DNA of 47,741 nucleotides from a virus (IMGVR_UViG_3300026521_000074:1-47741), one strand, 5' to 3'; shown: positions 26,870 through 43,781, numbered from the stretch's first letter. Made by a program: numbers and translations. Notes: generated by a model not told the origin, from the sequence alone.

Positions 26870-26950
26870 AACTTTCTTTAAATGTGGCTCAAAGCCCCAG
26901 TACAGCGTACTTTCAGTGGGGTGGTCAAGACCATCAGTTTACTGTTTACC
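26870..26950 (-). repeat. 81-base inverted repeat, copy A, in small terminase leader
   Basis: Read on the minus strand this is 74/81 identical, without gaps, to 43701-43781 on the plus strand. It covers the last four codons of the upstream zinc-ribbon gene and nearly all of the leader of the small terminase gene. It contains short dyads CAGT-aa-ACTG, GGTC-tt-GACC, ACT-gaa-AGT and GGCT-ttg-AGCC. Confidence 0.9.
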
Positions 26951-27211
26951 AGAATTACTAATATTATTTACAAAAGTATATAATCCATTTTCTAGTAATG
27001 CTATAAATAATTCTTTCTTTTGACGTGGACTAACCACTTTACCAAATCTTAGTAATCTGTCATTTGCTTCTGTACATACGTGACATCTTGTTTGTCTGTT
27101 GTATTCTCTTAATGGAGCACTAGCCAGTCTGCCACACGAGCACACATAATTTATATTACCATTTTTAACACCATACAGATTAACCAATCTTGGGGATTTT
27201 ATATCAATCAT
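26939..27211 (-). CDS. Small zinc-ribbon-like protein
   Basis: 90 residues, ATG at 27211 with AAGG upstream and a CGATATAC 27 bases before the start, so it is the first gene of the late minus-strand run. Two cysteine pairs, VCSCG and RCHVC about 20 residues apart, suggest a small zinc ribbon; the C-terminal half is a basic helix (RQKKELFIALLENGL). The last four codons lie within the 81-base repeat, so its C-terminus GKQ is partly set by that element. No named family is recognised. A late regulator or a packaging accessory factor is possible, given that it precedes the terminases. Confidence 0.6.
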   Translation of the reverse strand: MIDIKSPRLVNLYGVKNGNINYVCSCGRLASAPLREYNRQTRCHVCTEANDRLLRFGKVVSPRQKKELFIALLENGLYTFVNNISNSGKQ

Positions 27212-27237
27212 TTTTATACCTTAAACTTTTCTTTATT

Positions 27238-27245
27238 GTATATCG
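27238..27245 (-). promoter_or_regulatory. Late promoter-like CGATATAC (first of the late run)
   Basis: CGATATAC on the minus strand, 27 bases before the zinc-ribbon gene, at the divergence point with the plus-strand operon. Confidence 0.55.
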
Positions 27246-27325
27246 CACTTTATACACATTATTGGGCTAAATTGACTAATATGTGATATTACTTTGAAAT
27301 ATTTACGATATATGTTATATAGCAC

Positions 27326-27354
27326 TTGACATTAGAAGCTTTTAGTGTTATAAT
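27326..27354 (+). promoter_or_regulatory. Sigma70-type promoter
   Basis: TTGACA (27326-27331), 17-base spacer, TATAAT (27349-27354), followed by AC. It drives the 27.4-31.2 kb operon. The TG before the -10 box (GTTATAATAC) is shared with other promoters in the right arm. Confidence 0.85.
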
Positions 27355-27379
27355 ACGTGTATAAAAACTTAAAGGAGTT

Positions 27380-27421
27380 ATGATGAAAATCAAAACACAA
27401 CTAGGAGAAACAGATGGGTAA
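27380..27421 (+). CDS. 13-residue leader peptide
   Basis: A short reading frame, MMKIKTQLGETDG, has a strong AAAGGAG site and starts about 25 bases after the predicted -10 box. Its stop TAA overlaps the first codons of the next gene (ATGGGTAA), so terminating ribosomes could reinitiate there. It may be a translational leader. It is too short to assess by homology. Confidence 0.5.
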   Translation: MMKIKTQLGETDG

Positions 27422-27758
27422 AGATGTACCAGTGATGCCACCTCTAAATGAGAAGGTTGCAAGAGGAAAAAAACGTGGTAGAAAACGTAAACTTGTTTTT
27501 GTAAAAGGTACAGAGGTATCTTCTGAAACATTTGGTGTTGGTACTGTACTTAGAGAAGGTATGAATGGTATACTTATCTGTGATTTTGGTGGCTCAGTTA
27601 GAGAAGTACCAAAAGATACTTTAGCAATACGTGAAGGTGATAGTGCTGATGACGTTGCAGATGTAGAAGAGAATTTAACACCTATTGATATGGGTTATGA
27701 TGGCTCTGATGATGATGGTGCTATTGGTGATACAGACAATGGAGTAAGTGATGAGTAA
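27414..27758 (+). CDS. Basic/acidic protein with AT-hook-like and Tudor-like parts
   Basis: 114 residues. Residues about 17-27 (ARGKKRGRKRK) resemble an AT-hook, a minor-groove DNA-binding motif. Residues about 38-72 (FGVGTVLREGMNGILICDFGG) match the small beta-barrel seen at the C-terminus of UvrD/PcrA helicases, where the F-G-x-G-T-V motif binds RNA polymerase or nucleic acid; the first 20 residues of this stretch are the diagnostic ones. The C-terminal 40 residues are very acidic. As first full gene of the operon it could be a transcription or chromatin-type regulator, which is inference. It overlaps the leader peptide at its start and the next gene at its stop. Confidence 0.65.
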   Translation: MGKDVPVMPPLNEKVARGKKRGRKRKLVFVKGTEVSSETFGVGTVLREGMNGILICDFGGSVREVPKDTLAIREGDSADDVADVEENLTPIDMGYDGSDDDGAIGDTDNGVSDE

Positions 27759-28053
27759 AGAGAATGAAGAGGTAGAAACTTTAGTAGAGGCTATGGATTA
27801 CTTCTTACCTATCAACTTAGTCCAACAACGGGACATCACTTTAAAAGCTCTTAATGAGGAAGGTGAAGTAGATGATATTGAGCTTACTCTTGATATGACT
27901 TGGGCTAAAGGGATGTTAGGTGTTATGCCACTATTCCGTACTTTAGAAGCAGCTAAAGAGTATGCAGGTGAAGCTGCTGAGGTACTTGTATTTTCTGGAC
28001 CGATGATTAAAGGATTTGAAGATGAGCAAGAAACTGATAAAATTGACGGATGA
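27751..28053 (+). CDS. Unrecognised small acidic protein
   Basis: 100 residues from ATG 27751, preceded by GGAG; an in-frame GTG lies one codon upstream. It overlaps the previous stop by 8 bases and the next start by 32. The N-terminal half is acidic with a LVEAMDYFLPINLVQQRDI segment, and the middle has DIELTLDMTWAKGMLGVMP. There are no membrane segments or metal motifs. The tight overlap on both sides suggests coupled translation within the operon. No function is assigned. Confidence 0.65.
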   Translation: MSKENEEVETLVEAMDYFLPINLVQQRDITLKALNEEGEVDDIELTLDMTWAKGMLGVMPLFRTLEAAKEYAGEAAEVLVFSGPMIKGFEDEQETDKIDG

Positions 28054-28513
28054 TTGGGCACTTCATCCTAAAGTTGCTGAGCAATTAGTTCCAGTACTAA
28101 CGCAAAACCAAAAAGATTTACTAACTCCCATACTAATCAACTCTTCGAGTATTGATAGTATACGTAGGTCTTTTCTGGAATTGTTTAGAAAAACAAATAG
28201 TTTATTTTCACCACTTAGTTTTAGGTACTCCTACTCCTTCAACGTATCTGGTAAAAGAAACATTACAGTTGTACCAAAGTACTATCTTGAAAAAGACTTG
28301 AATATGATGGTAAATGACTACAAGATTATTACACAAGTTTCTCATATTGTACCAGAAGGTAAAGATTGGGAAGAAGAGGCTTACGAGCTTATTAACTACT
28401 TCCAAGGGAGTGCTGCAAAGACAGCTTTCGAGTTAGTGAAAACTTATTGTGATGATGGTACATATAGGGGCTATAAATGCAGAGAGATATTCAGAGACAA
28501 ACCAGTAAGGTAA
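28022..28513 (+). CDS. Unrecognised protein of the early operon
   Basis: 163 residues from ATG 28022, with AAAGGA 7 bases upstream; a TTG two codons earlier is less likely. The sequence has basic helices (SIDSIRRSFLELFRKTN), a beta-rich centre (FRYSYSFNVSGKRNITVVPK) and a helical C-terminal third ending GYKCREIFRDKPVR. There is no clear catalytic signature. Its C-terminus overlaps the next gene by 37 bases. Context suggests a nucleic-acid-related role, but this is weak. Confidence 0.65.
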   Translation: MSKKLIKLTDDWALHPKVAEQLVPVLTQNQKDLLTPILINSSSIDSIRRSFLELFRKTNSLFSPLSFRYSYSFNVSGKRNITVVPKYYLEKDLNMMVNDYKIITQVSHIVPEGKDWEEEAYELINYFQGSAAKTAFELVKTYCDDGTYRGYKCREIFRDKPVR

Positions 28514-28797
28514 AGAAACGTCCATATAAAAAACTAACTGATGAGGATGTTGAATTTATTACAAACAACTACTTAGTACTATCTGACAAAAGACTTGGAT
28601 GGATACTTGGTAGGAATGAGGCAACTATTAGGAAGCACAGACAGCTACTAGGACTTAGTAGAGTTAAAGTAAATATTCAAGAGGTGTTGGCAGAAATGCC
28701 AATTATTGTCTGGATGCCACGAAGTCACTTTGATGGCACAGACACAGATTTAAAAAATTTAAAAATTATCGGAGAAAATTATGACAGAAGCAATTAG
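28477..28797 (+). CDS. Helix-turn-helix DNA-binding protein
   Basis: 106 residues. After a basic N-terminus (QTSKVKKRPYKKLTDEDV), residues about 22-65 form a homeodomain-like helix-turn-helix: VEFITNNYLVLSDKRLGWIL then GRNEATIRKHRQLLGLSR, where the second stretch is the recognition helix. The C-terminal 40 residues are unassigned. Small proteins of this kind in phage operons are usually regulators or DNA-binding accessories. It overlaps both neighbours (37 bases upstream, 17 downstream). Target sites are unknown. Confidence 0.7.
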   Translation: MQRDIQRQTSKVKKRPYKKLTDEDVEFITNNYLVLSDKRLGWILGRNEATIRKHRQLLGLSRVKVNIQEVLAEMPIIVWMPRSHFDGTDTDLKNLKIIGENYDRSN

Positions 28798-29323
28798 ACT
28801 AATCCAAGGTGTTACATCACCTGCACAAGTAAACAGAATTATTGATTGGAATTATGGTAGAAACAAACTAGAGCTTGACTCAAACCTTGAAATCAATATG
28901 TTAGCAGAAGAGGCTAAAGAGTATTTTGATGCAAAAACATTTGTGGACAGAGTGGATGCAGTATGTGACCTTATCTTTGTAGGAGTTGGTACACTTGCCA
29001 AAACTTCCAATGCTTACCACCTTTCAGCTAAGGAGCTATTTGCACCTATTGACTTTATTCTTACTGACTTTGTTGGTAGAGTAGAAGCAGAAGGTATTTC
29101 ATCAGAGGTGTTCATGGGTATGCTCACTGAAAGCTTAGATGCAGTTATCACTGCAAATGAGGAGAAGGGTACAGACAGAGACGAGAATGGTAAGGTTAAA
29201 AAGCCAGAAGGTTTTGTACCACCAGAAGAGAGAATTGCAGAGATTGTAGAGAAGTTTAAAGCTCTCTCCACAGAGGCAGCTACACAAGACATGGGACAAG
29301 TGTTTCCACAAGGAGGTAATTAA
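28781..29323 (+). CDS. MazG-like NTP pyrophosphohydrolase
   Basis: 180 residues. Residues about 38-70 carry the all-alpha NTP-PPase signature: MLAEEAKEYFDA supplies the E-E-x-x-E metal ligands (Glu43, Glu44, Glu47) and RVDAVCDLIFVGVG supplies the D-x-x-x-D pair (Asp59, Asp63). A later NEEKGTDRDENGKVKKPEGF segment resembles the loop seen in phage phosphoribosyl-ATP-pyrophosphohydrolase-like proteins. Enzymes of this group hydrolyse dNTPs or NTPs to monophosphates, or in phages lower (p)ppGpp-type signals. It begins 17 bases inside the previous gene and its stop shares a base with the next start (TAATG). The substrate is not predictable. Confidence 0.78.
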   Translation: MTEAIRLIQGVTSPAQVNRIIDWNYGRNKLELDSNLEINMLAEEAKEYFDAKTFVDRVDAVCDLIFVGVGTLAKTSNAYHLSAKELFAPIDFILTDFVGRVEAEGISSEVFMGMLTESLDAVITANEEKGTDRDENGKVKKPEGFVPPEERIAEIVEKFKALSTEAATQDMGQVFPQGGN

Positions 29324-29583
29324 TGCCATTACCAAAGAAACTAAACTGCCAAGACGTAGATAGTATCTTCCAAAACTTTATTGGGGGTGCTACGGTCAAG
29401 GCAATAGCAGAAGACTTAGACGTTACCAGACTTACAGTTACAAGAGTCCTTCGTAAAGAGACTTACCAAGACTGTACAGAAGCTCATGCCAAGCTACCAG
29501 AAAACTTCTTTGAAACTGTTGATGAGCGTATGAAAGCAAACCAACGTAGAAGTAGAGGACAAGGCAAGAAGGTGAATTCGTAA
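29323..29583 (+). CDS. Small helix-turn-helix protein
   Basis: 86 residues, with GGAGG just upstream. Residues about 8-50 form a resolvase-like helix-turn-helix: VDSIFQNFIGGATVKAIAEDL (first helices; abbreviated) then DVTRLTVTRVLRKETYQD as the recognition part. The C-terminus is basic (ANQRRSRGQGKKVNS). It resembles small phage DNA-binding regulators. Start and stop both overlap neighbours by one base (TAATG), so translation is coupled. It is likely a regulator or a terminase-like HTH relic; regulator is preferred given the operon. Confidence 0.7.
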   Translation: MPLPKKLNCQDVDSIFQNFIGGATVKAIAEDLDVTRLTVTRVLRKETYQDCTEAHAKLPENFFETVDERMKANQRRSRGQGKKVNS

Positions 29584-30057: not shown

Positions 30058-30071
30058 GCTTGGAGGCATAA

Positions 30072-30527: not shown

Positions 30528-30529
30528 CA

Positions 30530-31190: not shown

Positions 31191-31209
31191 TTAATAGTTA
31201 ATTTTAAAG

Positions 31210-31223: not shown

Positions 31224-31229
31224 AAGTTG

Positions 31230-31736: not shown

Positions 31737-31752
31737 CTATTCTCCTTTTATC

Positions 31753-32262: not shown

Positions 32263-32290
32263 GAATTTCTCCTTTGTTTTTAAGATACCA

Positions 32291-33189: not shown

Positions 33190-33190
33190 C

Positions 33191-34402: not shown

Positions 34403-34427
34403 GTGTGCTCCTAAATTTTATTTACTT

Positions 34428-34435: not shown

Positions 34436-34458
34436 TCTATAAAGTAAGGGACTGAGAC

Positions 34459-34515: not shown

Positions 34516-35211
34516 ATGAGTGCCGATGGATTTATACAAAGAGCAAAGGTAATACATGGGGATAAATATGATTATAGTAAAGTTGAATATATAAATACAA
34601 AGACTTCGGTAATTATTATATGTCCTACACATGGTGAGTTTGAGCAAGCAGCCTATAACCACACTAGGGGATATGGTTGCCCCTCTTGCAGAGGACTCCC
34701 TTTAGAAGCTTTTATACAAAGAGCAAAGTCAGTGCATGGAGATAAGTATGATTATAGTAAAGTTGTTTATAAAAATGTTTATAGTAAAGTCATTATAATT
34801 TGTAAAAAGCATGGTGAGTTTGAGCAAGCAGCCTATAACCACACTAGGGGATATGGTTGCCCAATATGTGCCAAGTCTAAATTACATGAAGGTGCAAATA
34901 CTTTCTATATCTGGCAAGAAGCTGATAGTAACCGTTACAAGATTGGTATAACTTCCAAGTCTTTGCAAGTGCGTATGACTGACGTTAGTAGGAAGCTTAA
35001 TATAACACCTATACCCATACTGGAGCTAAAAATTGATGACGCTTTCAGCTTGGAGCAAAGCCTCTTACAAATATTTGCCGAAGATGTATACGATGGGGAA
35101 GGTTATGGCGTAGAATTTCTAACACTAACTGATGAAAAATTAAGCAAGTTGCTGCACTTAGTTAAGCAGGTAAGTAAGAATGGTTTACCAGAGCACTTAA
35201 AGTTATATTGA
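34516..35211 (+). CDS. GIY-YIG/T5orf172-like endonuclease with two zinc-ribbon repeats
   Basis: 231 residues from ATG 34516, with GAGGAG upstream and a promoter 28 bases before. The longer frame to 34459 begins in the -35 box and is not real. Two 60-residue repeats (about 5-65 and 66-125) share FIQRAK-x-HGDKYDYSKV and CPTHGEF or CKKHGEF, ending RGYGCPSC or RGYGCPIC, the DUF723-type Cys-His zinc module of homing endonucleases. Residues about 130-210 contain NTFYIWQEADSNRYKIGITS and a later EQSLLQIF, as in T5orf172/GIY-YIG nucleases. A free-standing homing endonuclease is the best guess. The two repeats share an identical 53-base stretch, so the duplication is recent. Confidence 0.75.
   Translation: MSADGFIQRAKVIHGDKYDYSKVEYINTKTSVIIICPTHGEFEQAAYNHTRGYGCPSCRGLPLEAFIQRAKSVHGDKYDYSKVVYKNVYSKVIIICKKHGEFEQAAYNHTRGYGCPICAKSKLHEGANTFYIWQEADSNRYKIGITSKSLQVRMTDVSRKLNITPIPILELKIDDAFSLEQSLLQIFAEDVYDGEGYGVEFLTLTDEKLSKLLHLVKQVSKNGLPEHLKLY
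34630..34862 (+). repeat. 53-base identical direct repeat within the endonuclease gene
   Basis: 34630-34682 and 34810-34862 are identical, 180 bases apart (60 codons). The bases between them have diverged, so a recent conversion or duplication is likely. Confidence 0.9.
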
Positions 35212-35646: not shown

Positions 35647-35663
35647 AGTCATAGGCTATAACT
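35647..35663 (+). repeat. 17-base dyad copy 1 (right arm half decayed)
   Basis: AGTCATAGGCTATAACT, flanked by A5 and T5. One base of the right arm differs from the family (A for G). Confidence 0.8.
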
Positions 35664-35697
35664 TTTTAAAACTTTTTAAGAAAATTTATTTTTTCTC

Positions 35698-35727
35698 TTG
35701 ACTTCTTAATCTTTTTAATGCTATAAT
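35698..35727 (+). promoter_or_regulatory. Sigma70-type promoter
   Basis: TTGACT, 18-base spacer, TATAAT. Serves the 31-residue gene at 35782; a dyad AGATA-acaac-TATCT follows at about 35738-35752. Confidence 0.75.
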
Positions 35728-35781
35728 CTTTTCAAGTTAGATAACAACTATCTAGCAATTAACTTTTAATAAGGTGGTAAC

Positions 35782-35877
35782 ATGGTAGGCAGTAACTTAC
35801 TAGGCGTTAAAGGTGGTATTAATTACATTACACCTATTAACCCAAACGAAAAAGGATATAATCTTAAAAAGTCATAG
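35782..35877 (+). CDS. 31-residue peptide ending inside a dyad element
   Basis: MVGSNLLGVKGGINYITPIN is the start, and the frame ends LKKS then TAG. It has AAGGTGG before the ATG and its own promoter. The stop codon lies inside the second dyad copy (AGTCATAG). The product is small and neutral, with no membrane helix. Real expression is plausible because promoter, ribosome-binding site and frame agree, but no homology can be judged at this size. Confidence 0.5.
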   Translation: MVGSNLLGVKGGINYITPINPNEKGYNLKKS

Positions 35878-35886
35878 CTTATGACT
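35870..35886 (+). repeat. 17-base dyad copy 2
   Basis: AGTCATAGCTTATGACT, fully paired, flanked by A and T runs, containing the stop codon of the 31-residue gene. It may act as a terminator for that gene. Confidence 0.85.
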
Positions 35887-35896
35887 TTTAAAAAGC

Positions 35897-35926
35897 TTGA
35901 CAGTTTAAGGTTAGAAACTGTATAAT
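35897..35926 (+). promoter_or_regulatory. Sigma70-type promoter
   Basis: TTGACA, 18-base spacer, TATAAT, then GATAGC-aagta-GCTATC (35935-35951) in the leader. The leader CAATTAACTTTTAA is shared with the promoter unit just upstream, pointing to a duplicated leader. Confidence 0.85.
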
Positions 35927-35973
35927 ACAAAACAGATAGCAAGTAGCTATCAATTAACTTTTAAGGAAACGAA

Positions 35974-36612
35974 ATGAAAACTACATTTAAGACAGCAAAG
36001 GCATTAACAAACGAGTTTATCAAAACGATTAAGACAGCAGAAAAAAGCAATGCACAATATTTGTTAGCTTTGGCAAAACTAGCAAAGGACGGCAAAGTAA
36101 CTTATAATGACTTACACGCAACTAATAAGCAACTGAACGAGGCTACAAAATCAACTGGCATTACTACTTTTAAAAATGTAGCTATGATAGTTGGGCGTAT
36201 GTATGACAAAAAAACTGTTAAGGGTAAATCAACGCCTTATCAACTTAATTTAAGCGTTATTGACAGCGTTATAGCGTTGGGCGTTGGTGCAAGTATGGCA
36301 AAACTCCAAGCAGTACGCAAAGAGGGTAAAGAGGTACAGAAAAAAACTACAGAGAAAACGGCTAAAACTGTAACGGGTACGGCTGAAGATGTAGTGCAAG
36401 TGGACGTTAAAAAAGAGGTGCAAAGCATTAAAGATGAAGTTATCCAAAACGCTACACAAATAGCGAAATTATCTAAAGATGACTTGACAGATAAATTTTA
36501 CGACCTTTTAAGCTCTATCGAAGATATGGCACAAACTTTCGACCCTGCAAAAAACCCTAACCAAACGGCAGTCATTATCGCAAAAATGGAAAGTCTTGCA
36601 AGTAGCTTTTAA
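35974..36612 (+). CDS. Helical, Lys-rich protein
   Basis: 212 residues, TTAAGGAAA before the ATG. The N-terminal two thirds are Lys/Ala-rich and mostly helical (AKALTNEFIKTIKTAEKSNA, QYLLALAKLAKDGK), with a Lys/Thr-rich linker (KKTTEKTAKTVTG) and a C-terminal helical domain (DDLTDKFYDLLSSIEDMAQ). There is no membrane segment or metal motif. A strong promoter of its own and position next to the candidate origin suggest an abundant early DNA-associated protein, but this is inference. No family is recognised. Confidence 0.65.
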   Translation: MKTTFKTAKALTNEFIKTIKTAEKSNAQYLLALAKLAKDGKVTYNDLHATNKQLNEATKSTGITTFKNVAMIVGRMYDKKTVKGKSTPYQLNLSVIDSVIALGVGASMAKLQAVRKEGKEVQKKTTEKTAKTVTGTAEDVVQVDVKKEVQSIKDEVIQNATQIAKLSKDDLTDKFYDLLSSIEDMAQTFDPAKNPNQTAVIIAKMESLASSF

Positions 36613-36654
36613 GCTACTGCAAGGGTACTTGACAACTCCAGACCAACCACAAAA

Positions 36655-36671
36655 AGTCATAGGTTGTGACT
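36655..36671 (+). repeat. 17-base dyad copy 3
   Basis: AGTCATAGGTTGTGACT with one T-G pair in the stem. It follows a TTGACA-like sequence at 36629 and lies far from any start codon. Confidence 0.85.
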
Positions 36672-36896
36672 TTATAAAACATTTCACAACCTACAATAAC
36701 AAGACGGCATAATGACGCAAAAGCTAAAATTTTGGAAACCTTCAAAATTTCCAGTCTCAAGCCCACAAAGCCCGTCCAGACTTATAAAGTAACTTGTAAA
36801 GCCAATAAAATAAAAAAGGTGGCAAGTTATTTAGTGGGTGTTGGTTAAGTTTGAGTTAAATTCACGGTGGCAGTTGGTAAGGTGAGTGTGTGCTGT

Positions 36897-36925
36897 TTGA
36901 CAGTTTGTGATAATTATTATATACT
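36897..36925 (+). promoter_or_regulatory. Sigma70-type promoter
   Basis: TTGACA, 17 bases, TATACT. It serves the 113-residue gene, with a long leader of about 140 bases that contains a large hairpin and a dyad. Confidence 0.7.
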
Positions 36926-36956
36926 ATGGGTAAGAATTTGGGCAGTTATTTGATGC

Positions 36957-36993
36957 TTTTTTATACATATATTTATTATGTGTGTATAAAAAA
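36957..36993 (+). terminator. Long AT-rich hairpin in a leader
   Basis: TTTTTTATACA pairs exactly with TGTATAAAAAA across an inner partly paired loop. It is flanked by A and T runs, so it could terminate transcription on either strand, or attenuate the message starting at 36.93 kb. Confidence 0.55.
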
Positions 36994-37009
36994 GTGGCAG
37001 TTGCTAAAA

Positions 37010-37026
37010 AGTCATAATCTGTGACT
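37010..37026 (+). repeat. 17-base dyad copy 4
   Basis: AGTCATAATCTGTGACT, 45 bases before the 113-residue gene, with T-run after it. Confidence 0.8.
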
Positions 37027-37071
37027 TTTCAGTTATCGGCACTTTAAAAATTAACGATTAAGGAATTTAAA

Positions 37072-37413
37072 ATGTATGGCAAACAAGTAAAAGCATATAG
37101 AGCTGTTATAAACGGTACGATTACAAATTATGTAGGTAGTCAAAAGTTTATTATCCCAGTTTCGGCAAATATCGTTGAAGTTACCTCTCATTTTGAGACA
37201 GCTTCTAATAAGTTTTTCAGCAGTCAAGTTTTAGAGGGCTTGAATTTTGATAGGGCTACATCTACAAAAGATAAGAGAATGTACTTCAAAGCTGAATGTA
37301 GTTACAATAAAGGGCTTACAACTGAGGTGCTAAATGTGACAGAAGTTGAAGTGAAGATATACGAAATTTACAATGATGCAAGTGAGAAGTTAGTAACTTT
37401 TAACACCTTGTAA
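37072..37413 (+). CDS. Unrecognised beta-rich protein
   Basis: 113 residues with the conserved TTAAGGAATTTAAA-ATG start cassette. It alternates polar and hydrophobic residues (FIIPVSANIVEVTSHFETA, VLNVTEVEVKIYEIYND), suggesting a small beta fold without membrane segments. No cysteine motif beyond a single Cys. It sits alone between non-coding stretches, with its own promoter and leader. Function unknown. Confidence 0.6.
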   Translation: MYGKQVKAYRAVINGTITNYVGSQKFIIPVSANIVEVTSHFETASNKFFSSQVLEGLNFDRATSTKDKRMYFKAECSYNKGLTTEVLNVTEVEVKIYEIYNDASEKLVTFNTL

Positions 37414-37474
37414 GTTACTGTAATTTACGTTACAATAATAGTAGGAATTGCTTAATATTTGGGCAGTTTCAAAA

Positions 37475-37491
37475 AGTCATAGGCTATGACT
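37475..37491 (+). repeat. 17-base dyad copy 5
   Basis: AGTCATAGGCTATGACT, perfect arms, 26 bases before the lipoprotein gene, followed by AATTAACAAAATTTAAGGA. Confidence 0.9.
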
Positions 37492-37517
37492 AATTAACAA
37501 AATTTAAGGATTAACAG

Positions 37518-37811
37518 ATGAAAAAGACAATTATGAGGGCATTATTTGCAGGTATGCTTCTAGTAAGTTGTGGTGAAGTTGCTACAGCAGTTGAGAAAAG
37601 TGTAGGAGTTGAATGTCCTATGACAGAGGTGTATGATATTTATACACCAGTGAGTACATTAGAGTATGAAGTAGAGTTGGTGGTTACAAATTCGGAGTCA
37701 ATCCCTAACCAAATCGTGGAAATCGAGCAACCCCTTGATGATATTTATGAGGTTGTGGTAAGAGGTTTGAATGGTTGTGAAGTAGAGCATTACTACTTCT
37801 ATGGAGTGTAG
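37518..37811 (+). CDS. Small lipoprotein
   Basis: 97 residues. MKKTIMRALFAGMLLVSCGE is a lipoprotein signal with lipobox LVSC and Cys18 as the lipidated residue. The mature 80 residues are acidic and contain two more cysteines (VECPMTE, NGCEVE), perhaps a disulphide. Early-expressed phage lipoproteins often act in superinfection exclusion by blocking receptors or DNA entry; that role is inferred from the class, not shown here. It follows a dyad with an AAGGA site and is followed by a gene 2 bases after its stop. Confidence 0.72.
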   Translation: MKKTIMRALFAGMLLVSCGEVATAVEKSVGVECPMTEVYDIYTPVSTLEYEVELVVTNSESIPNQIVEIEQPLDDIYEVVVRGLNGCEVEHYYFYGV

Positions 37812-37813
37812 TC

Positions 37814-38215
37814 ATGCAAGAATATAATTTATTTTTATTTGCTAAGTTGTATGAAGAGATTATTGGCAAGAGTGAAGAAGAGTATGACATACAATTTGAA
37901 AAACTTGGAAAGTTGTATGATGAGTTTTCATTAGGTAGTAGATTTAATGTGGATGAGAAAAGTCAGTATGATTGTATGGTAGATTTCTTTGAAGATTTGA
38001 AATCCAACACACCCGATACTAAGGCGTACATTGTAGAGCTTAGTGTAATGACTAGAGTATTGGCAGTTGAGGGTACAGAAGATGAGGAGTTTATTCGCTT
38101 GGCTATTAAGTCTTTACTAACTGATGTGGACTTAGAAGAAAAGATGGCAGGTGGGTTGATTGGTATCACCGAAGATTTTGATGTGCCTTATGGGGCTTGT
38201 ATAACTGATAAGTAA
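37814..38215 (+). CDS. Unrecognised acidic protein
   Basis: 133 residues, GGAG before ATG. Helical N-terminus (EYNLFLFAKLYEEIIGKSEE), acidic throughout, with a C-terminal segment KMAGGLIGITEDFDVPYG. There is no membrane segment or metal motif. It probably shares a transcript with the lipoprotein gene, starting 2 bases after it. A dyad copy begins 2 bases after its stop. Confidence 0.62.
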   Translation: MQEYNLFLFAKLYEEIIGKSEEEYDIQFEKLGKLYDEFSLGSRFNVDEKSQYDCMVDFFEDLKSNTPDTKAYIVELSVMTRVLAVEGTEDEEFIRLAIKSLLTDVDLEEKMAGGLIGITEDFDVPYGACITDK

Positions 38216-38216
38216 A

Positions 38217-38233
38217 AGTCATAGGCTATGACT
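38217..38233 (+). repeat. 17-base dyad copy 6
   Basis: AGTCATAGGCTATGACT right after a stop codon, then AATTAACAATTAAGGA and the next start. This is the typical arrangement of the family. Confidence 0.9.
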
Positions 38234-38256
38234 AATTAACAATTAAGGAATTTAAA

Positions 38257-38775
38257 ATGAGCCAGTTAAAGAAGTTTGTGGATAGTGTACAAAAGAAATT
38301 AAGTAAGGTTGAAGATAAAGTGGATTGCCCAAATGCAGGTGGGTGTGCTGTAATAGCCCTTAGTGCTTATAGATATTTGGAGAGAAAATTCCCCGAAGAT
38401 ATGCACAAAGTTAGTATAGTTTTCCTATTCACTGAGGGTAGTTTTGATGAGAATGAAGAGGAGCGTCTTAGAAATAATCAAGCAGGTAGCTGTAGTCATT
38501 GTATGCTACGAATTAGTGAGGTAGGTGGTGAGCGTTATATAGATTGTGAAGGTGATTATACTTGGGATGCTCTTGTAGATGATTATGGTTTTGCTAGAGA
38601 ATTGGCAATCACTCCTGCTCAATGCTTATGTGCTATCAACTATAGAAGTTGGAATACTGTGTTTGAGAGAGAGGAGTCTTTACCTATTATTACTAAAATA
38701 TTTGGTAAGGGAAGTACAGAAGGTATCAACAAAGATTGGAAGATAAAGGATAAGCCATGTCCAGACCAGAAGTAA
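38257..38775 (+). CDS. Papain-like/cysteine protease-fold candidate
   Basis: 172 residues. Cys30 in NAGGCAVIALSAYRYL, His81 in SCSHCMLRI and Asp96 in YIDCEGDY are spaced and placed like a Cys-His-Asp triad of papain-like proteins. The G-G-C helix start is seen in several phage families of this type, so a protease, amidase or transglutaminase-like activity is possible. Cys79 and Cys82 next to the His could instead bind metal. No signal peptide is seen, so it acts in the cytoplasm. Its end overlaps the kinase-like gene by 19 bases. Confidence in the fold is moderate; the substrate is unknown. Confidence 0.55.
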   Translation: MSQLKKFVDSVQKKLSKVEDKVDCPNAGGCAVIALSAYRYLERKFPEDMHKVSIVFLFTEGSFDENEEERLRNNQAGSCSHCMLRISEVGGERYIDCEGDYTWDALVDDYGFARELAITPAQCLCAINYRSWNTVFEREESLPIITKIFGKGSTEGINKDWKIKDKPCPDQK

Positions 38776-39332
38776 TTGGTAGAGGGGCGTTTACTAAAGT
38801 TTGGGGTGATGGGAAAGATGCCTATATAGCCTCAACTTGTGTAGCCAAACAAGCTATTAGTGATATGTATGAGCATCCTATGATACCTAAGTTAGAGTAT
38901 CTTGGAGTAGTACCTTATAAAGAGGATATTAAAATCTATAAAGCTCCACGTTATGAAAAGATAGTACGTCCTAGTGAGCAACTATCACCACGTCATTACT
39001 TATATTATAAGCAACTCACTAAAGCTTTTAGAAGAGATTATGGTGGGTATGGTAGTGCTTGGGGTTTCGGTACAATTTCTGATAAGTTACAAGAGAGTGA
39101 GCTTACCCCTTACCTACGTGATGTGTTAATGGATATGCTAACATACACTTCAAGCTATCTTGGACAGCATGGAGTATGTATGGAAGTATCTCCACGCAAC
39201 TTGATGGCTTATAAGGGCAAACTTATCTTAAATGATTTGTTTTTTGATACAGATATGGTGGATGAAGAGGGATATTACCCTTACTATCTTAAAATACTAC
39301 GCTTTAATACCTTGAAGGCTGCGATTGAATAG
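38757..39332 (+). CDS. Protein kinase-like protein
   Basis: 191 residues, AAGGA before ATG. The start IGRGAFTKVWGDGKDAYI resembles a kinase glycine-rich loop, followed by CVAKQ where the ATP-binding Lys would be (Lys31). The region VCMEVSPRNLM (142-150) aligns with a catalytic loop in which the usual HRD Asp is Glu143 in E-V-S-P-R-N, with the metal-binding Asn148 kept. LILNDLFFD supplies Asp160 as the DFG-like Asp. The E-x-S-P-R-N form is a pattern I recall from phage kinase-like proteins, so it may be active in another way or be a pseudokinase. It is short for a kinase. Coupled to the papain-like gene, it may modify host proteins. Confidence 0.6.
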   Translation: MSRPEVIGRGAFTKVWGDGKDAYIASTCVAKQAISDMYEHPMIPKLEYLGVVPYKEDIKIYKAPRYEKIVRPSEQLSPRHYLYYKQLTKAFRRDYGGYGSAWGFGTISDKLQESELTPYLRDVLMDMLTYTSSYLGQHGVCMEVSPRNLMAYKGKLILNDLFFDTDMVDEEGYYPYYLKILRFNTLKAAIE

Positions 39333-39347
39333 TCACAGCCTATGACT
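39331..39347 (+). repeat. 17-base dyad copy 7
   Basis: AGTCACAGCCTATGACT followed by a T5 run, overlapping the kinase-like gene's stop (TAG at 39330-39332). The upstream GGCTGCGA inside the gene can pair with TCACAGCC with one mismatch. Confidence 0.85.
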
Positions 39348-39352
39348 TTTTC

Positions 39353-39398
39353 AGAGGTAAGGGCGTTTAATAGTACACCTTAGAGGGTGGCGAAAGGA
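39353..39398 (+). repeat. Second leader cassette, copy 1
   Basis: AGAGGTAAG-n4-TTTAAT-n2-(T/G)ACACCTT ... GCGAAAGGA is shared with 43028-43078. Both precede a very small gene with a hydrophobic N-terminus. Confidence 0.65.
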
Positions 39399-39400
39399 AA

Positions 39401-39607
39401 ATGATGAAGTATTTACTATTGATAGCACTATGTGTAGGTATTAGTGTAGCTGATGAGAATAAATCTCAAAATATCAGTGACCCTTGTGACAAGGCTATTG
39501 AAAAAGCTACTAAGGTACACTGGGATTATGTAAACGGAAAGACAACTATAACACACAGTTATAATGAGCGTATAAAAGCAGAGAAAATCTGTGGATTTAA
39601 ACTATAA
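39401..39607 (+). CDS. Small secreted protein
   Basis: 68 residues, GAAAGGAAA before ATG. MMKYLLLIALCVGISVADEN is a Sec signal peptide with likely cleavage after SVA. The mature 50 residues are charged, with two cysteines (DPCDKA and KICGF) that may form a disulphide in the periplasm. No family is recognised. Together with the lipoprotein at 37.5 kb, it suggests early modification of the host envelope. Confidence 0.65.
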   Translation: MMKYLLLIALCVGISVADENKSQNISDPCDKAIEKATKVHWDYVNGKTTITHSYNERIKAEKICGFKL

Positions 39608-39635
39608 AGAGGAGGTGTCACATAGTATTATAAGC

Positions 39636-39664
39636 TTGACTTATGCTGTAATATATGTTATAAT
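39636..39664 (+). promoter_or_regulatory. Sigma70-type promoter with two-state leader
   Basis: TTGACT, 17 bases, TATAAT, in the shared form GCTTGAC...TGTTATAATAC. Its leader carries a dyad copy plus an upstream pairing arm GCAGTGA. Confidence 0.85.
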
Positions 39665-39700
39665 ACAGCTGATTTAGACAAAGAGTTGCAGTGATTGAAA

Positions 39701-39717
39701 AGTCACAGCCTATGACA
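39701..39717 (+). repeat. 17-base dyad copy 8
   Basis: AGTCACAGCCTATGACA, 24 bases before a start codon. Upstream GC-a-GTGA (39689-39695) can pair with TCAC-a-GC of the left arm. Confidence 0.85.
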
Positions 39718-39740
39718 AATTAAAATATTAAGGAAATAAA

Positions 39741-40160
39741 ATGGAAACAACTAATCCAAAACTAAGTTTAGACAACAACGCAGAGACAATCAGTAAAGCA
39801 TTCGGTTATGATACTATGAAAGAAATGCAAAAGGCTTTTGAAGATGGCACAATGGGTGAAGATAAAGAATTTGCATTCAAGCTTATTGTAGCTGTGGACT
39901 CACTACCAGAAGGTGCATCTGCACTAATTATGGTACTCCTAGAGTCAATTTATGGTGAAGATATTGTGTATAATAAATCATCAATGGCTGAAACTTTGGC
40001 AAACGGTATTACAGACAAAGATGCAAGAAACAAAATCGAAATGATTGCAATGATGGCAACAATGAAAAGTCATATTGACGGTATGAAAAGTGGTGCAGGT
40101 CTTGGTGGACTTGGAGACTTAGGCAGTATGCTTGATGGACTAAAAGGTATGATGAAGTAA
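39741..40160 (+). CDS. Unrecognised helical protein
   Basis: 139 residues, TTAAGGAAA before ATG. Mostly helical (AETISKAFGYDTMKEMQKAF, ARNKIEMIAMMATMKSHIDG) with a Gly/Leu/Met-rich C-terminus (GAGLGGLGDLGSMLDGLKGMM). There are no cysteines and no clear membrane helix, though the C-terminus is amphipathic. It has a strong promoter and the two-state leader, so it is likely well expressed and regulated. Function unknown. Confidence 0.62.
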   Translation: METTNPKLSLDNNAETISKAFGYDTMKEMQKAFEDGTMGEDKEFAFKLIVAVDSLPEGASALIMVLLESIYGEDIVYNKSSMAETLANGITDKDARNKIEMIAMMATMKSHIDGMKSGAGLGGLGDLGSMLDGLKGMMK

Positions 40161-40161
40161 A

Positions 40162-40178
40162 AGTCACAACTTGTGACT
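40162..40178 (+). repeat. 17-base dyad copy 9
   Basis: AGTCACAACTTGTGACT, fully paired with a C-G pair at the variable position. It starts 2 bases after a stop codon and is followed by TTTT. Confidence 0.9.
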
Positions 40179-40219
40179 TTTCTAACCAAATAACAAAAAA
40201 AAAATATTAAGGAAATATT

Positions 40220-40666
40220 ATGAATAACAATTTAATCGAAGTAACAGTAGGCGTAGACGGTAAAGGTATCACTCATGTAGATGGACATCCAGCAGAGGTG
40301 CTTCCTGCACTTGCAAATGCAATGGGACACATTTTTGCACACTTTGGTAAAGTACCACCTCTTGAAGATTTGATGGAAATGAGCGTTGAAGCTACTTGTA
40401 ACGAGCCTTTTATGCTACAAGTTTCAGAAAGTAACACTGGCTTTGGTGGGTGTGAAGAGTGTCTACTCTCTGCTGTGGCAGATGTAATGAAAGCTGTTGC
40501 TACAAGCTTGGAGCTTGATGCAAGACTCACTCAAGACTTGTACGAAAAACTGTATGAAGATGCTAAAGAAATTTCGGTGCAAAGTGCTGAGCAAGTGCCA
40601 GAAGAGAAACAATTTTCAGAGCTTGATGATGACATTAAAGCTAAAATGGGTATGTTGGAGGACTAA
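40220..40666 (+). CDS. Unrecognised protein with cysteine pair
   Basis: 148 residues, TTAAGGAAA before ATG. Beta-rich N-terminus (LIEVTVGVDGKGITHVDG), then helices (EVLPALANAMGHIFAHFG), a GFGGCEECLLSAVADVMKA segment with CxxC that could bind metal, and an acidic helical C-terminus. There is one more Cys at TCNEPF and two His in the helix. Next gene starts directly after its stop with GGAGGA inside its end. Confidence 0.6.
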   Translation: MNNNLIEVTVGVDGKGITHVDGHPAEVLPALANAMGHIFAHFGKVPPLEDLMEMSVEATCNEPFMLQVSESNTGFGGCEECLLSAVADVMKAVATSLELDARLTQDLYEKLYEDAKEISVQSAEQVPEEKQFSELDDDIKAKMGMLED

Positions 40667-40918
40667 ATGTTTTCCAAACTTATGAAAGCCCTTGACCACT
40701 TCATTGAGGTTGAGGACACCCCTTATGAAGTAGCTACAATTTTGTTAAAAGACACTTGTAGCTTTCATAATCCGTTTGTAGATAAACACATCCCTTATGA
40801 CAAGGAGATTGATGTGACGATTGAGGTTGCCTCTGGTGTGTACTCTTGGGAGTATAAGACTGGACGCTATATTGATGTACCAAAAGATTTTATAGAAGAA
40901 ATTGAGGTAGTCGCATAA
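40667..40918 (+). CDS. Unrecognised small acidic protein
   Basis: 83 residues, GGAGG upstream within the previous gene. No membrane helix. It contains beta-like segments (EIDVTIEVASGVYSWEYKTG) and two His/Cys residues (TCSFHNPF, DKHIP). The stop TAA overlaps the start of a dyad copy. Probably co-transcribed with the gene before it. Function unknown. Confidence 0.58.
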   Translation: MFSKLMKALDHFIEVEDTPYEVATILLKDTCSFHNPFVDKHIPYDKEIDVTIEVASGVYSWEYKTGRYIDVPKDFIEEIEVVA

Positions 40919-40934
40919 GTCATAAGCTATGACT
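40918..40934 (+). repeat. 17-base dyad copy 10
   Basis: AGTCATAAGCTATGACT overlapping a stop codon, followed by T5 and TATTAAGGA. Confidence 0.9.
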
Positions 40935-40955
40935 TTTTAATATTAAGGAATTAAA

Positions 40956-41198
40956 ATGAGTAACAAAATACCTAAGATTGATGATTTTATCGTATACCCT
41001 TTTGAGTTTGAATTTGTAGTAGTAAATCAAAAAACTGGTGAGGTTGTGAAAGCCCCTACAAATGCGAGTTGGGACGGTGTACCCGTGACAGCTAACTCTC
41101 TAAAAGCTTTGTATGTTAGTACTCCACTTAAAAATTATGGGCACAAACACACAAAAGAAGTTGAAGCTTGGTGGGAAGAGTATTGTAAAGGAGCATAA
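40956..41198 (+). CDS. Unrecognised small protein
   Basis: 80 residues, TTAAGGAATTAAA-ATG. A short beta region (FIVYPFEFEFVVVNQKTGE) and a basic/aromatic C-terminus (YGHKHTKEVEAWWEEYCKG). No signal or membrane segment. The next gene begins 1 base after its stop with AAAGGAG in its end. It opens a chain of five very small genes. Confidence 0.58.
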   Translation: MSNKIPKIDDFIVYPFEFEFVVVNQKTGEVVKAPTNASWDGVPVTANSLKALYVSTPLKNYGHKHTKEVEAWWEEYCKGA

Positions 41199-41199
41199 A

Positions 41200-41301
41200 A
41201 TGGAAGCTTTTTTTGTAGAGTATGGAGTGTGGGCTATTTTCTTTATAGCTCTTGTATATGTATTGGTAGCACCAGAAATAGGAGAATATGATGGTAGTTG
41301 A
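41200..41301 (+). CDS. 33-residue membrane peptide
   Basis: AAAGGAG precedes ATG 41200. The single hydrophobic helix lies in VEYGVWAIFFIALVYVLVA, ending with a short acidic tail. Upstream in-frame extension to 41113 lacks a ribosome-binding site. It overlaps the next gene by 14 bases. Single-helix phage peptides often modulate host membrane proteins. Confidence 0.55.
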   Translation: MEAFFVEYGVWAIFFIALVYVLVAPEIGEYDGS

Positions 41302-41479
41302 AGTAGCATTGATAGAAGAATTGATTATGCACAGTCTTGTAATGGTTACAATTACTGGTGGTATAGTTGTAAAGCGTAAGTATGTTAAAGGTTATCGTCC
41401 ACACTTCTCTAAAATTAGAGTTATCAGACGTGCAATAAGAAAATTGGAGGTACATGATGAAACTACAGCTAAGTTTTAA
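41288..41479 (+). CDS. Small membrane-associated basic protein
   Basis: 63 residues, AGGAGA before ATG. An N-terminal hydrophobic helix (ELIMHSLVMVTITGGIVV) is followed by a strongly basic tail (KRKYVKGYRPHFSKIRVIRR). This would place the basic part in the cytoplasm by the positive-inside rule. It overlaps both neighbours. Confidence 0.58.
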   Translation: MMVVEVALIEELIMHSLVMVTITGGIVVKRKYVKGYRPHFSKIRVIRRAIRKLEVHDETTAKF

Positions 41480-41555
41480 GGATAAGGCGTTTGTTTGGTT
41501 TATAGATTTTGCTATATTTTGTGCGATACTGTATGGTATTGCTTTATTTGATTAA
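41454..41555 (+). CDS. 33-residue membrane peptide
   Basis: GGAGG precedes the double ATG. A basic/polar N-terminus (MMKLQLSFKDKA) leads into a single helix (FVWFIDFAIFCAILYGIALF). The start is nested in the end of the previous gene. The stop TAA forms the start of the TTAAGGA site of the next gene, so the two are coupled. Confidence 0.58.
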   Translation: MMKLQLSFKDKAFVWFIDFAIFCAILYGIALFD

Positions 41556-41564
41556 GGAATTAAA

Positions 41565-41852
41565 ATGAGAGAAATGACAGTTGGTGAGAAGGCTTATCGA
41601 AGTTACAAGGCAGTACGTGTGGTAGGATTTAAAGTCCTATTATTTGGTGGGGCTACAGCAGTGGCTATGTGGGTATGGCATTACTACACAGCACACCCAC
41701 ACCCTTTTGAAACTTATATGATAGACAATTCCAAAATGGCGTTGTATATTGAAGCATTGAAAGCTTTGATGTATGAAGCATGGGCAGAGGCTGGGACAGT
41801 TATGGAAGAAGAGATTGCAGAAGTTGCAACGGAAGGAGCTACAAATGCTTAA
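41565..41852 (+). CDS. Small single-helix membrane protein
   Basis: 95 residues, TTAAGGAATTAAA-ATG. A basic N-terminus (YRSYKAVRVVGFK) precedes one helix (VLLFGGATAVAMWVWHYY), then a soluble, helical, acidic C-terminal half (EALKALMYEAWAEAGTVMEE). It overlaps the ATPase gene by 8 bases, so the two may be functionally linked, for example as a membrane anchor; this is a guess. Confidence 0.6.
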   Translation: MREMTVGEKAYRSYKAVRVVGFKVLLFGGATAVAMWVWHYYTAHPHPFETYMIDNSKMALYIEALKALMYEAWAEAGTVMEEEIAEVATEGATNA

Positions 41853-42429
41853 TACAGACAAGTTAAAACCTATCAGCACTACATCTTTGCAACCCCTTTT
41901 GGGGATTAAGTGCTTAACAGCAGAAGGTGTTACAGTATTTGCAGGACTTAGTGGTTGTGGTAAATCTGTGTATCTTGCAGGAGTATTTAAACAGTTGCAG
42001 GATAATGGTTACAACCCTTACTACCTAAACTATGATGAGAGTCCTATGGAGATTGACAGCTATGAGCCAGTAACTTTAGAAGATTTGAAAGATTTGGTAA
42101 AAGAAGCTGATGACAAAGATGTTGTCTTTATTGACACCCTTAAAGCATTTTGTAGCTATAGTGATATTGACATTGATGACGACAAAGAAGCTTACAAAAT
42201 GATGGAAGCCTTTACAAGAATGTCAAGAGATACTGGGGTTACAATTATCCTAGTACATCATGTGGATGATAAGGAAAATCTGGAAGGCTCTACTTCTATC
42301 TATGAAGGTGCTGATGCAGTCACTATCTTTGAGCGTAATAAAGACACTGGTATTATGTACGGTAATATCAAAAAACAACGCTTTAGTTTTGATTGTGAGG
42401 CTAGTGTAAACTTGGAGCTTTATGAATGA
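41845..42429 (+). CDS. RecA-like P-loop ATPase (RepA/AAA_25-like)
   Basis: 194 residues from ATG 41845 (GGAGCTACAA-ATG with AAGGAG just before); the frame is open to 41773 but that part belongs to the previous gene. Walker A GLSGCGKS lies at 34-41, a LNYDES segment matches the catalytic Glu strand of RecA-like folds, Walker B VVFIDTL at 93-99, and IILVHHV at 134-140 is the motif found in RepA/KaiC-like and Sak4-type ATPases. GSTSIYEGADAV follows, as in the RepA group. It may load or remodel replication proteins, or be a single-strand annealing recombinase partner. The fold is confident and the role is inferred. Confidence 0.78.
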   Translation: MLNTDKLKPISTTSLQPLLGIKCLTAEGVTVFAGLSGCGKSVYLAGVFKQLQDNGYNPYYLNYDESPMEIDSYEPVTLEDLKDLVKEADDKDVVFIDTLKAFCSYSDIDIDDDKEAYKMMEAFTRMSRDTGVTIILVHHVDDKENLEGSTSIYEGADAVTIFERNKDTGIMYGNIKKQRFSFDCEASVNLELYE

Positions 42430-42617
42430 GAGTTGTAAAAGTAACAGCAGGTATTGGTACAAAGTTTTGGTTAGCTTGTCCAGAAACTGGTAAAGTTATT
42501 AACATTAATCGTACTGGTGCTAAAAAAGTAGCATCCGTATGTGATGTAGATATTGAAACAAAAACATTAGAGGAGCTTGAAATTCTCAAGCAGGAATATA
42601 AAAGTCATAGGGTATGA
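42426..42617 (+). CDS. Small protein coupled to the ATPase, stop inside a dyad
   Basis: 63 residues; ATG overlaps the ATPase stop (ATGA). Beta-rich N-terminal half (VVKVTAGIGTKFWLACPETG) and a helical acidic C-terminus (KTLEELEILKQEYKS). Its last codons, KSHRV-stop, are encoded by the dyad copy at 42604, so the element has supplied the C-terminus. Function unknown; coupling suggests partnership with the ATPase. Confidence 0.6.
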   Translation: MRVVKVTAGIGTKFWLACPETGKVININRTGAKKVASVCDVDIETKTLEELEILKQEYKSHRV

Positions 42618-42620
42618 CTT
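42604..42620 (+). repeat. 17-base dyad copy 11
   Basis: AGTCATAGGGTATGACT. Its first 14 bases are coding and provide the TGA stop of the previous gene. TTAAGGA follows 10 bases later. Confidence 0.9.
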
Positions 42621-42641
42621 ATTAAACATTAAGGAAAAATT

Positions 42642-42938
42642 ATGGTATCAGAAGTAAAACAAACACAGATTATTATGACATTAGCAGAAAAAGGTGGAGA
42701 GTTTTTAGCAAATAGAGTAGGAGACATCCCACCAAACCATGCTATAGGCTTGTCACATTTATTGGCGATAGCACCTATGCTTATGAAAGAAGAGGAAGGC
42801 ACTCCCGTAGATGCAGTACAAGATTTGATTGACCACGTTACAGATATTGGAAAATCTAAAGGTGGCTCAACTGAGGAAAAGTGTGAAACTCCTATTGCTT
42901 TATTGCAAGAGTTTAAATCATACTTAGAAAAATGTTAA
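42642..42938 (+). CDS. Unrecognised helical protein
   Basis: 98 residues, TTAAGGAAAAATT-ATG. Helical (TQIIMTLAEKGGEFLANRVG, NHAIGLSHLLAIAPMLMKEE) with no long enough anchor to be clearly membrane-bound, and an acidic C-terminal half with a single cysteine pair (EKCETP, LEKC). A 30-residue membrane peptide starts inside its last codons. Function unknown. Confidence 0.58.
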   Translation: MVSEVKQTQIIMTLAEKGGEFLANRVGDIPPNHAIGLSHLLAIAPMLMKEEEGTPVDAVQDLIDHVTDIGKSKGGSTEEKCETPIALLQEFKSYLEKC

Positions 42939-43024
42939 GCAGTATGTTGATGGTAGGTGTATTAGTCACCACCATTATGGCAGTTAGTATTGAAGTCTTG
43001 CAGAGAATTGATGCAAGACTTTAA
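42932..43024 (+). CDS. 30-residue membrane peptide
   Basis: The frame MLSSMLMVGVLVTTIMAVSI then EVLQRIDARL overlaps the previous stop by 7 bases. One hydrophobic helix with a short charged end. The ribosome-binding site is weak, so expression would depend on coupling. Confidence 0.4.
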   Translation: MLSSMLMVGVLVTTIMAVSIEVLQRIDARL

Positions 43025-43027
43025 AAG

Positions 43028-43078
43028 AGAGGTAAGCAAGTTTAATGTGACACCTTTAAGAGACAGAGAGCGAAAGGA
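43028..43078 (+). repeat. Second leader cassette, copy 2
   Basis: Shares AGAGGTAAG-n4-TTTAAT-n2-GACACCTT ... GCGAAAGGA with 39353-39398. It precedes the 20-residue membrane peptide. Confidence 0.65.
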
Positions 43079-43084
43079 GATAGT

Positions 43085-43147
43085 ATGTCTGATGGAGAAT
43101 ACTTCCTATTACTTTTATTAGTATGGTGGTTTATATTAAGTAGCTAA
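43085..43147 (+). CDS. 20-residue membrane peptide
   Basis: MSDGEYFLLLLLVWWFILSS with GAAAGGAGA 5 bases before the ATG. Almost entirely one hydrophobic helix. The strong ribosome-binding site and the shared leader with the 39.4 kb secreted-protein gene support expression. Confidence 0.45.
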   Translation: MSDGEYFLLLLLVWWFILSS

Positions 43148-43192
43148 ATAAGCACGTTTTACCTATAACCTATAGTAAGGTATAGGTAGGGC

Positions 43193-43253
43193 TTTTAAAA
43201 TGCCTTTTTGACCCCTTAGCGTTACGCTGTGAGGATTTTAAGGTATTTTAAAA
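43193..43253 (+). ncRNA. Long structured element before a dyad
   Basis: TTTTAAAATGCCTT pairs with AAGGTATTTTAAAA over 14 positions (one G-U), closing a 33-base loop that contains AGCG-tta-CGCT. The loop also has GCTGTGA, which can pair with TCATAGgC of the dyad that follows. It fills the gap between two genes. Whether it is a leader structure, terminator or independent RNA is unknown. Confidence 0.5.
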
Positions 43254-43269
43254 GTCATAGGCTATGACT
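43253..43269 (+). repeat. 17-base dyad copy 12
   Basis: AGTCATAGGCTATGACT, perfect arms, joined directly to the long hairpin and followed by TTATTAACAATTAAGGA. Confidence 0.9.
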
Positions 43270-43292
43270 TATTAACAATTAAGGAAAAGAAA

Positions 43293-43694
43293 ATGAAGAA
43301 ATTACAAAAAATGGTAGTAGATAAATTGTTTGATATACACTCTAGGTTGAGTAATATAGACTCTGTATCTACTTTGAAAGAGGATTTAGAGGAAGTTAGT
43401 GTAATGGTTAGAGATTTAGGTGATGCAGTGCAACTTGCAGACTACCCAGTTACAGATAATAGAGGGTTTAATGAGGTGAGTATGTCTAAAGATGAGCCTA
43501 CCTATTTGTTTAAAGATAGTGCAGAGATAGTTACAAAGGTAATTTCTAAGTACTCTCCAAGAGAGGTAAAGATAGAAACACCAAAAGAAGCTTTAGAGTG
43601 GTATGACTATTTGACAAACTGTACTTACACACCTAACCTAGAGTTAGCAAAAACAATTCTGTTTAATTACATAGTCGATAATCTTAAAAAGTAG
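43293..43694 (+). CDS. Unrecognised helical protein
   Basis: 133 residues, TTAAGGAAAAGAAA-ATG. The N-terminal 50 residues are an amphipathic coiled-coil-like helix (LQKMVVDKLFDIHSRLSNID). The C-terminal half is helical with a YDYLTNCTYTPNLELAKTIL segment resembling a helical repeat, though no family is recognised. The 81-base repeat copy B begins 6 bases after its stop. Confidence 0.58.
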   Translation: MKKLQKMVVDKLFDIHSRLSNIDSVSTLKEDLEEVSVMVRDLGDAVQLADYPVTDNRGFNEVSMSKDEPTYLFKDSAEIVTKVISKYSPREVKIETPKEALEWYDYLTNCTYTPNLELAKTILFNYIVDNLKK

Positions 43695-43700
43695 GAATTA

Positions 43701-43781
43701 GGTAAACAGTAAACTGATGGTCTTGACCACCCACGTCAAATGACGCTGTACTGGGGCTTTGAGCCATATTTAAAGAAAGTT
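43701..43781 (+). repeat. 81-base inverted repeat, copy B
   Basis: 74/81 identical to the reverse complement of 26870-26950, no gaps. Differences cluster in a 10-base centre (six of seven). In both copies the centre can form a 3-base stem (positions 34-36 with 40-42) through compensating changes. It is followed after 6 bases by a TTGACA promoter. Confidence 0.9.

Follow-up and report, generated by a model that had tools for sequence, protein, structure and literature searches.

An intergenic element with a directional core, shared by the small terminase leader and early promoters of related phages, as a probable control site

The window analysed here, the whole IMG/VR virus record IMGVR_UViG_3300026521_000074 (47,741 bases, hereafter W), carries two inverted copies of an 81-nt sequence lying 17 kb apart, one in front of the small terminase gene and the other in front of an early promoter, which raises the question of what a single sequence could be doing at two such different places. 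W is a siphovirus-type genome, in which the large terminase gene terL (24969-26303; phrog_2, E 1.2e-26) and the genes for the portal, protease, major capsid protein and tape measure protein all lie on the minus strand, and most of the small early genes on the plus strand. A gene for an HNH-type endonuclease contains a 152-nt direct repeat (83%) at 34531-34862.

Copy A (26870-26950, minus strand) fills the 79-nt gap between a gene for a 90-aa protein (26939-27211, minus) and the small terminase gene terS (26305-26859, minus; phrog_3802, E 2.2e-6) downstream of it; the stop codon of the former (TAA, 26939-26941) lies inside the copy, whose end is separated from the terS start by about 10 nt. Copy B (43701-43781, plus strand) is located between the stop of a 133-aa gene (43694) and a perfect TTGACA-N17-TATAAT promoter (43788-43816, plus; 12/12 consensus match), which begins 7 nt past its end. 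The repeat search of W aligned the two copies without gaps at 74 of 81 positions (91%), and self-BLAST stretched the pair to 91 nt at 89% (E = 1.7e-26). The ungapped inverted-repeat score was 60, as compared with 14-17 in 20 shuffles, so that the match is far beyond chance. The centre (CACTGAAAGTA, 26908-26918 on the minus strand, in copy A; ACGTCAAATGA, 43733-43743 on the plus strand, in copy B) accounts for six of the seven differences, the seventh being a C/T change after GAGCC. The original prediction, made from W alone, was confirmed in these respects: the repeat itself, the clustering of differences in its centre, and the placement of copy A before terS, with the upstream stop inside it, and of copy B just before a strong promoter.

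The 90-aa protein (CSCG...CxxC) appears zinc-ribbon-like by eye and had no family match. A small CSCG..CxxC protein precedes terS in W, in both relatives described below and in two further records (L078 and G37), the homologies being judged by eye; it could be a packaging partner or a regulator.

Relatives were sought with both the element and the phage proteins. An exact scan of 2.9 million viral contigs with an 18-base core recovered four copies in one contig, IMGVR_UViG_3300005095_000010 (G1, 57,561 bases), plus a match in one G+C-rich unrelated contig that we took as chance. The terL search recovered G1 again (92% identity) together with the 12.9-kb contig IMGVR_UViG_3300026519_000118 (G2, 87%) and more distant records, and the major capsid protein search added further, more distant relatives. 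One distant relative lies on a MAG contig that bears the label Desulfurellales (ranked by the NCBI taxonomy as an order within Campylobacterota); it is from this relative only that a hydrothermal-vent origin of these phages is suggested. Exact and degenerate core scans of the viral contigs returned only G1, G2 and chance coding-type matches, a sequence profile run over 11 related records found no copies beyond seven in all, and the core was absent from 25 genomes of the phylum of the Desulfurellales MAG. Among named phages and plasmids, no match to the element was obtained, the matches at E 0.3 concerning only its A+T-rich flank.

Across W and G1, which align collinearly, nucleotide identity is about 70%. 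Nothing in W corresponds to the right-hand 10 kb of G1, and further copies of the element may be missing from W for this reason. Four tRNA genes of G1 (Ser, Asn, Met, Ser; L022 15810-16186, corresponding to about 55.8-56.2 kb of G1) lie near exonuclease and metallophosphoesterase genes; this region has no counterpart in W, which is thus probably a fragment.

The family so defined comprises seven copies in three phages, with two in W, four in G1 and one in G2. The single copy of G2 (2578-2647 in L023, plus) precedes terS and is syntenic with copy A, as is G1b (19405-19480, plus; 19404-19483 for the syntenic stretch in L020), which forms the terS leader of G1; all three are located between the CSCG..CxxC gene and terS. 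G1c (4474-4549, minus) is syntenic with copy B, and both follow the end of a gene and precede a perfect TTGACA/TATAAT promoter (at 4468 in the case of G1c). Two further copies of G1 lie elsewhere, G1a (5550-5611, plus) between two minus-strand genes and antisense to both, and G1d (53532-53607, plus) about 25 nt before another early promoter, between divergent units where no gene reads into it. The expectation that one element would be common to an early and a late (terS) locus was thus borne out in a genome about 30% divergent, where it recurs at both places in the same gene order and in two additional copies.

The seven copies have in common a directional core, GGnAAAC...ACTGATGGTCTTGA(C/G)C(A/G)CCC, and align almost without gaps over the first 55 columns of the element. 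A 5' box GGnAAAC (GGTAAAC in W, at 26944-26950 on the minus strand in copy A and 43701-43707 on the plus strand in copy B; GGGAAAC in G1; GGAAAC in G2) is followed by 4-6 variable bases, by the 20-base core ACTGATGGTCTTGACCACCC (26919-26938, minus, in copy A; 43713-43732, plus, in copy B), by a hypervariable centre of about 10 bases that also differs between the G1 copies, and by a lineage-specific 3' half, in which ..TTTGAGCCA is common to W and G2 and ACAGCG..ATAAG-A5-CTTAT-GGGC is private to G1. The exact 81-mer of W, which the original prediction had proposed to look for in other phages, was absent from the relatives, whereas its 20-base core was retained, being identical in all the copies of W and G1 and carrying two changes in G2 (...GAGCGCCC), a mixed outcome for that check. 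This conservation of the core at the same places in related phages indicates that the element is probably a shared control site.

The copies resemble each other more within a genome (91% in W, 79-99% in G1) than between genomes at matching loci (57% for the copy A locus, 65% for the copy B locus of W and G1), which is the pattern of concerted evolution inside individual genomes. G1b has in common with G1a and G1d not only the element but also 18-30 nt from the 3' end of the preceding gene, so that G1a and G1d came from the terS locus. This sharing and the within-genome homogenisation would also suit a simpler explanation, in which the element is duplicated terS-leader DNA, spread and homogenised by recombination and functionless beyond copy A. 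Yet the synteny between copy B and G1c implies that copy B predates the split between W and G1 with its core unchanged since then, and centres and flanks vary where the core does not. We consider a functionless duplication of this kind unlikely.

The original prediction had described the element as a chain of short dyads that could form an operator. CAGT-aa-ACTG, GGTC-tt-GACC and GGCT-ttg-AGCC are indeed present in W but mostly not conserved in the relatives: the first is absent in G1 and G2, the third is replaced in G1, and GGTC-tt-GACC, the only one of the four proposed dyads found in both W and G1, is broken in G2, which leaves little of a multi-dyad operator. The proposed preservation of a central stem by paired changes was likewise weak, with ACT-GAA-AGT (3 pairs) in copy A, CGTC-AAAT-GACG (4 pairs) in copy B and two pairs or none in the copies of G1 and G2; no fixed stem is preserved.

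What is preserved is the position of the element with respect to genes and promoters. In three copies (B, G1c and G1d), the core lies 71, 75 or 91 nt upstream of a perfect early promoter and points toward it, and at the terS loci it lies 75-118 nt ahead of the terS start. In six of the seven copies the element has the direction of the promoter or gene that follows it, and in five of the seven a stop codon read in the same sense lies upstream, no more than about 10 nt from the start of the element. An intrinsic-terminator-like hairpin directly follows G1b, before terS, and a similar one follows G1a (by eye).

The promoters themselves deserve mention. A motif ACGATATAC/T occurs about 20-35 nt before many late gene starts in W and G1 and is probably a late promoter element unlike sigma-70; on the minus strand of W it is found at 34436, 32299, 27246, 24948, 19190, 13466, 12313, 5605 and 641, and likewise in G1. 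The occurrence GCGATATA at 27239-27246 (minus) lies about 300 nt upstream of copy A. On the plus strand of W, the region 35647-47343 contains 14-17 copies of another short dyad, AGTCAYAR-n-YTRTGACT, with A4/T4 flanks, most of them standing after an early promoter or the end of a gene and ahead of the ribosome-binding site that follows. Its counterpart in G1, AGTTAYAR..YTRTAACT, occurs at 13-16 places, both arms having changed together between the two genomes; these dyads could be dimer operators or RNA hairpins.

The distribution of the copies also bears on the proposals that the element is a packaging site (pac/cos-like and bound by terminase), a replication origin, or a recombination site capable of inverting 17 kb. 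Lambda-type cosB sites lie next to terS, as copy A does, and a phage that encodes recombination functions, such as the RuvC-like resolvase and exonuclease of G1, could recombine inverted arms of 81 nt. Nevertheless, only copy A adjoins terS in W and G1 holds at least four dispersed copies in both orientations, a poor fit to pac or cos. W and G1 have the two loci in the same order with no trace of inversion, and no contig end falls at any copy, the contigs being fragments. A role in packaging, replication or inversion appears unlikely.

The main rival to a DNA site, and the next explanation after it, is a transcribed RNA element, that is, an attenuator, a terminator-linked leader or a put-like antiterminator that would control read-through into terS or into the next early unit. 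The sense placement of most copies close behind a stop codon, the terminator-like hairpin between G1b and terS, and the asymmetric core, which can form a UGGU-CUUG-ACCA hairpin in W and G1, all agree with it, as does the longer fold that W and G2, but not G1, could share. The fold energies of the single sequences were, however, no better than those of shuffles (z between -1.1 and +1.1). RNAalifold predicted as consensus a pair of weak hairpins (-2.0 kcal/mol), a helix as long as the best common one turned up in 4 of the 60 column shuffles of an all-pairs test, and no fold was common to all copies, G2 breaking the core hairpin. None of the Rfam covariance models matched. A structured RNA was not retained as an explanation on these tests, none of which rose clearly above shuffles, and G1a (antisense) and G1d (where no gene reads in) argue further against a role as RNA, which we regard as possible but somewhat less likely than a DNA site.

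A short coding sequence was rejected as well, the differences being distributed evenly across codon positions and the frame with ATGGTCTTG being interrupted in copy B. Short reading frames (ATGGTCTTGACC.., MVLTT, and TDGLDHP..) were interrupted or lacked a start, showed no codon-position bias and gave no protein or family match.

Several relatives of these phages have intergenic repeats of their own around terL, including L078 (150 nt, 88%; 1091-1238 and 2578-2725), G3, G4 and G37 (49 nt, exact; 16442-16490 and 16541-16589 in L119); the direct repeats located in L024 lie at 452-522 and 1966-2035, and those in L025 at 7225-7303, 8692-8773 and 15817-15860. Their sequences differ between lineages, so that lineage-specific repeated segments near terminase genes are frequent in the wider phage group. 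These segments appear unrelated to the element, and one of them carries a terminator-like hairpin, a point that would favour an RNA role. We do not claim homology between the element and the repeat of G3, G4 and L078 (GTGTCAAAAACCATAATCATTGTTTTG), since, on either strand and over many comparisons, the best core alignments had shuffle rates of 0.4-2% and the others 7% to 100%.

Our preferred explanation, held tentatively and with somewhat less than an even chance of being correct, is a directional control site that acts at the DNA level at transcription-unit boundaries and is read by a phage protein. Cis-acting sites of about 65-80 bp would mark chosen boundaries, before terS and certain early promoters; a phage-specified DNA-binding protein would recognise the linear core GGnAAAC...ACTGATGGTCTTGAccaCCC, and the bound core would control transcription past or into the next unit, in the manner of an operator or road-block site. 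We infer all three of these components, the protein reader, the action on DNA and the effect on transcription. A D5-like transcriptional regulator encoded at 28477-28797 (plus; phrog_323, E 2.5e-4, a weak match) is only a candidate for the reader.

A DNA-level site of this type is consistent with the invariant linear core, the conserved loci, the common direction of most copies and the fact that no recognised transcript reads G1a or G1d in sense. Since an RNA role does not readily cover the antisense G1a, nor G1d in its divergent promoter region, these two copies favour DNA, and greater likeness within than between genomes would be expected if all copies had to fit one factor and recombination homogenised them. 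Against this explanation, the distance between core and promoter varies, which would be unusual for an activator or repressor site, the copies of the terS loci follow a promoter-like motif by about 300 nt instead of coinciding with one, and copies are few, only one of the five perfect early promoters of W and two of the seven of G1 carrying the element. A dimer site is doubtful, the sole dyad common to W and G1, TGGTC-TT-GACCA, being broken in G2. Moreover, G1a and G1d, by the flanks that they share with G1b, may be stray functionless duplicates, in which case the chief objection to RNA would fall away.

More speculatively, and in our opinion improbably, the element could represent a new class of its own among phage control elements. 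A long asymmetric site, constant in its core, free to vary in its centre and homogenised by recombination within each genome, would then let one phage-coded factor link the terminase gene with chosen early units, and the centre would perhaps set the strength or specificity of each copy. If terS were indeed tied to early units through one factor, this would show how one distant lineage of uncultivated phages times packaging relative to early genes, and the 20-base core and its predicted binding partner offer a testable target. The family also provides a clear case of non-coding phage repeats that evolve in concert within genomes while keeping their positions between species.

A literature search for a described equivalent yielded general analogues only. 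The stretch UGGUCUUGACCA of the core matches E. coli boxA at 9 of 12 positions, and among genomes of the phylum to which the Desulfurellales MAG belongs, rRNA leaders contain CGGTCTTTTAAA or TGATCTTTTACA; the likeness to nut/boxA is short and may be due to chance, and no partner hairpin recurs in every copy. The reversed core (GGTGG..TCAAG) partly resembles the L5 stoperator, a resemblance presumably fortuitous. The put RNA antiterminators of HK022 are likewise about 70 nt long and present in two copies per genome, but they fold into two stem-loops downstream of early promoters (PMC9378689), whereas the element has no stable common fold and its copies differ in placement, A following a late-promoter-like motif by about 300 nt and B, G1c and G1d standing ahead of promoters. 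With the SAS/ESAS of cluster K mycobacteriophages, the element has in common that function-unassigned repeats beside genes are kept at the same genes between relatives (PMC3203893). SAS are, however, 13 bp long, are associated with the starts of translation and can in part pair with 16S rRNA, and ESAS consist of paired arms with a variable spacer (PMC3203893), while the core of the element stands well before the terS start or ahead of promoters and does not form two inverted arms. The stoperators of cluster A mycobacteriophages are also dispersed, asymmetric and mostly co-directional, with a sequence that drifts with the lineage (PMC6550527, PMC9283540). They differ in being 13-bp sites, bound in temperate phages by a known immunity repressor that halts elongation (PMC6550527, PMC9283540); the conserved unit here is longer (65-80 bp), with at most four known copies per contig, in unrelated phages, and no repressor or integrase appeared among the phage proteins scanned. 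In sum, dispersed regulatory repeats are known in phages, and the element is a variant of them confined to one lineage.
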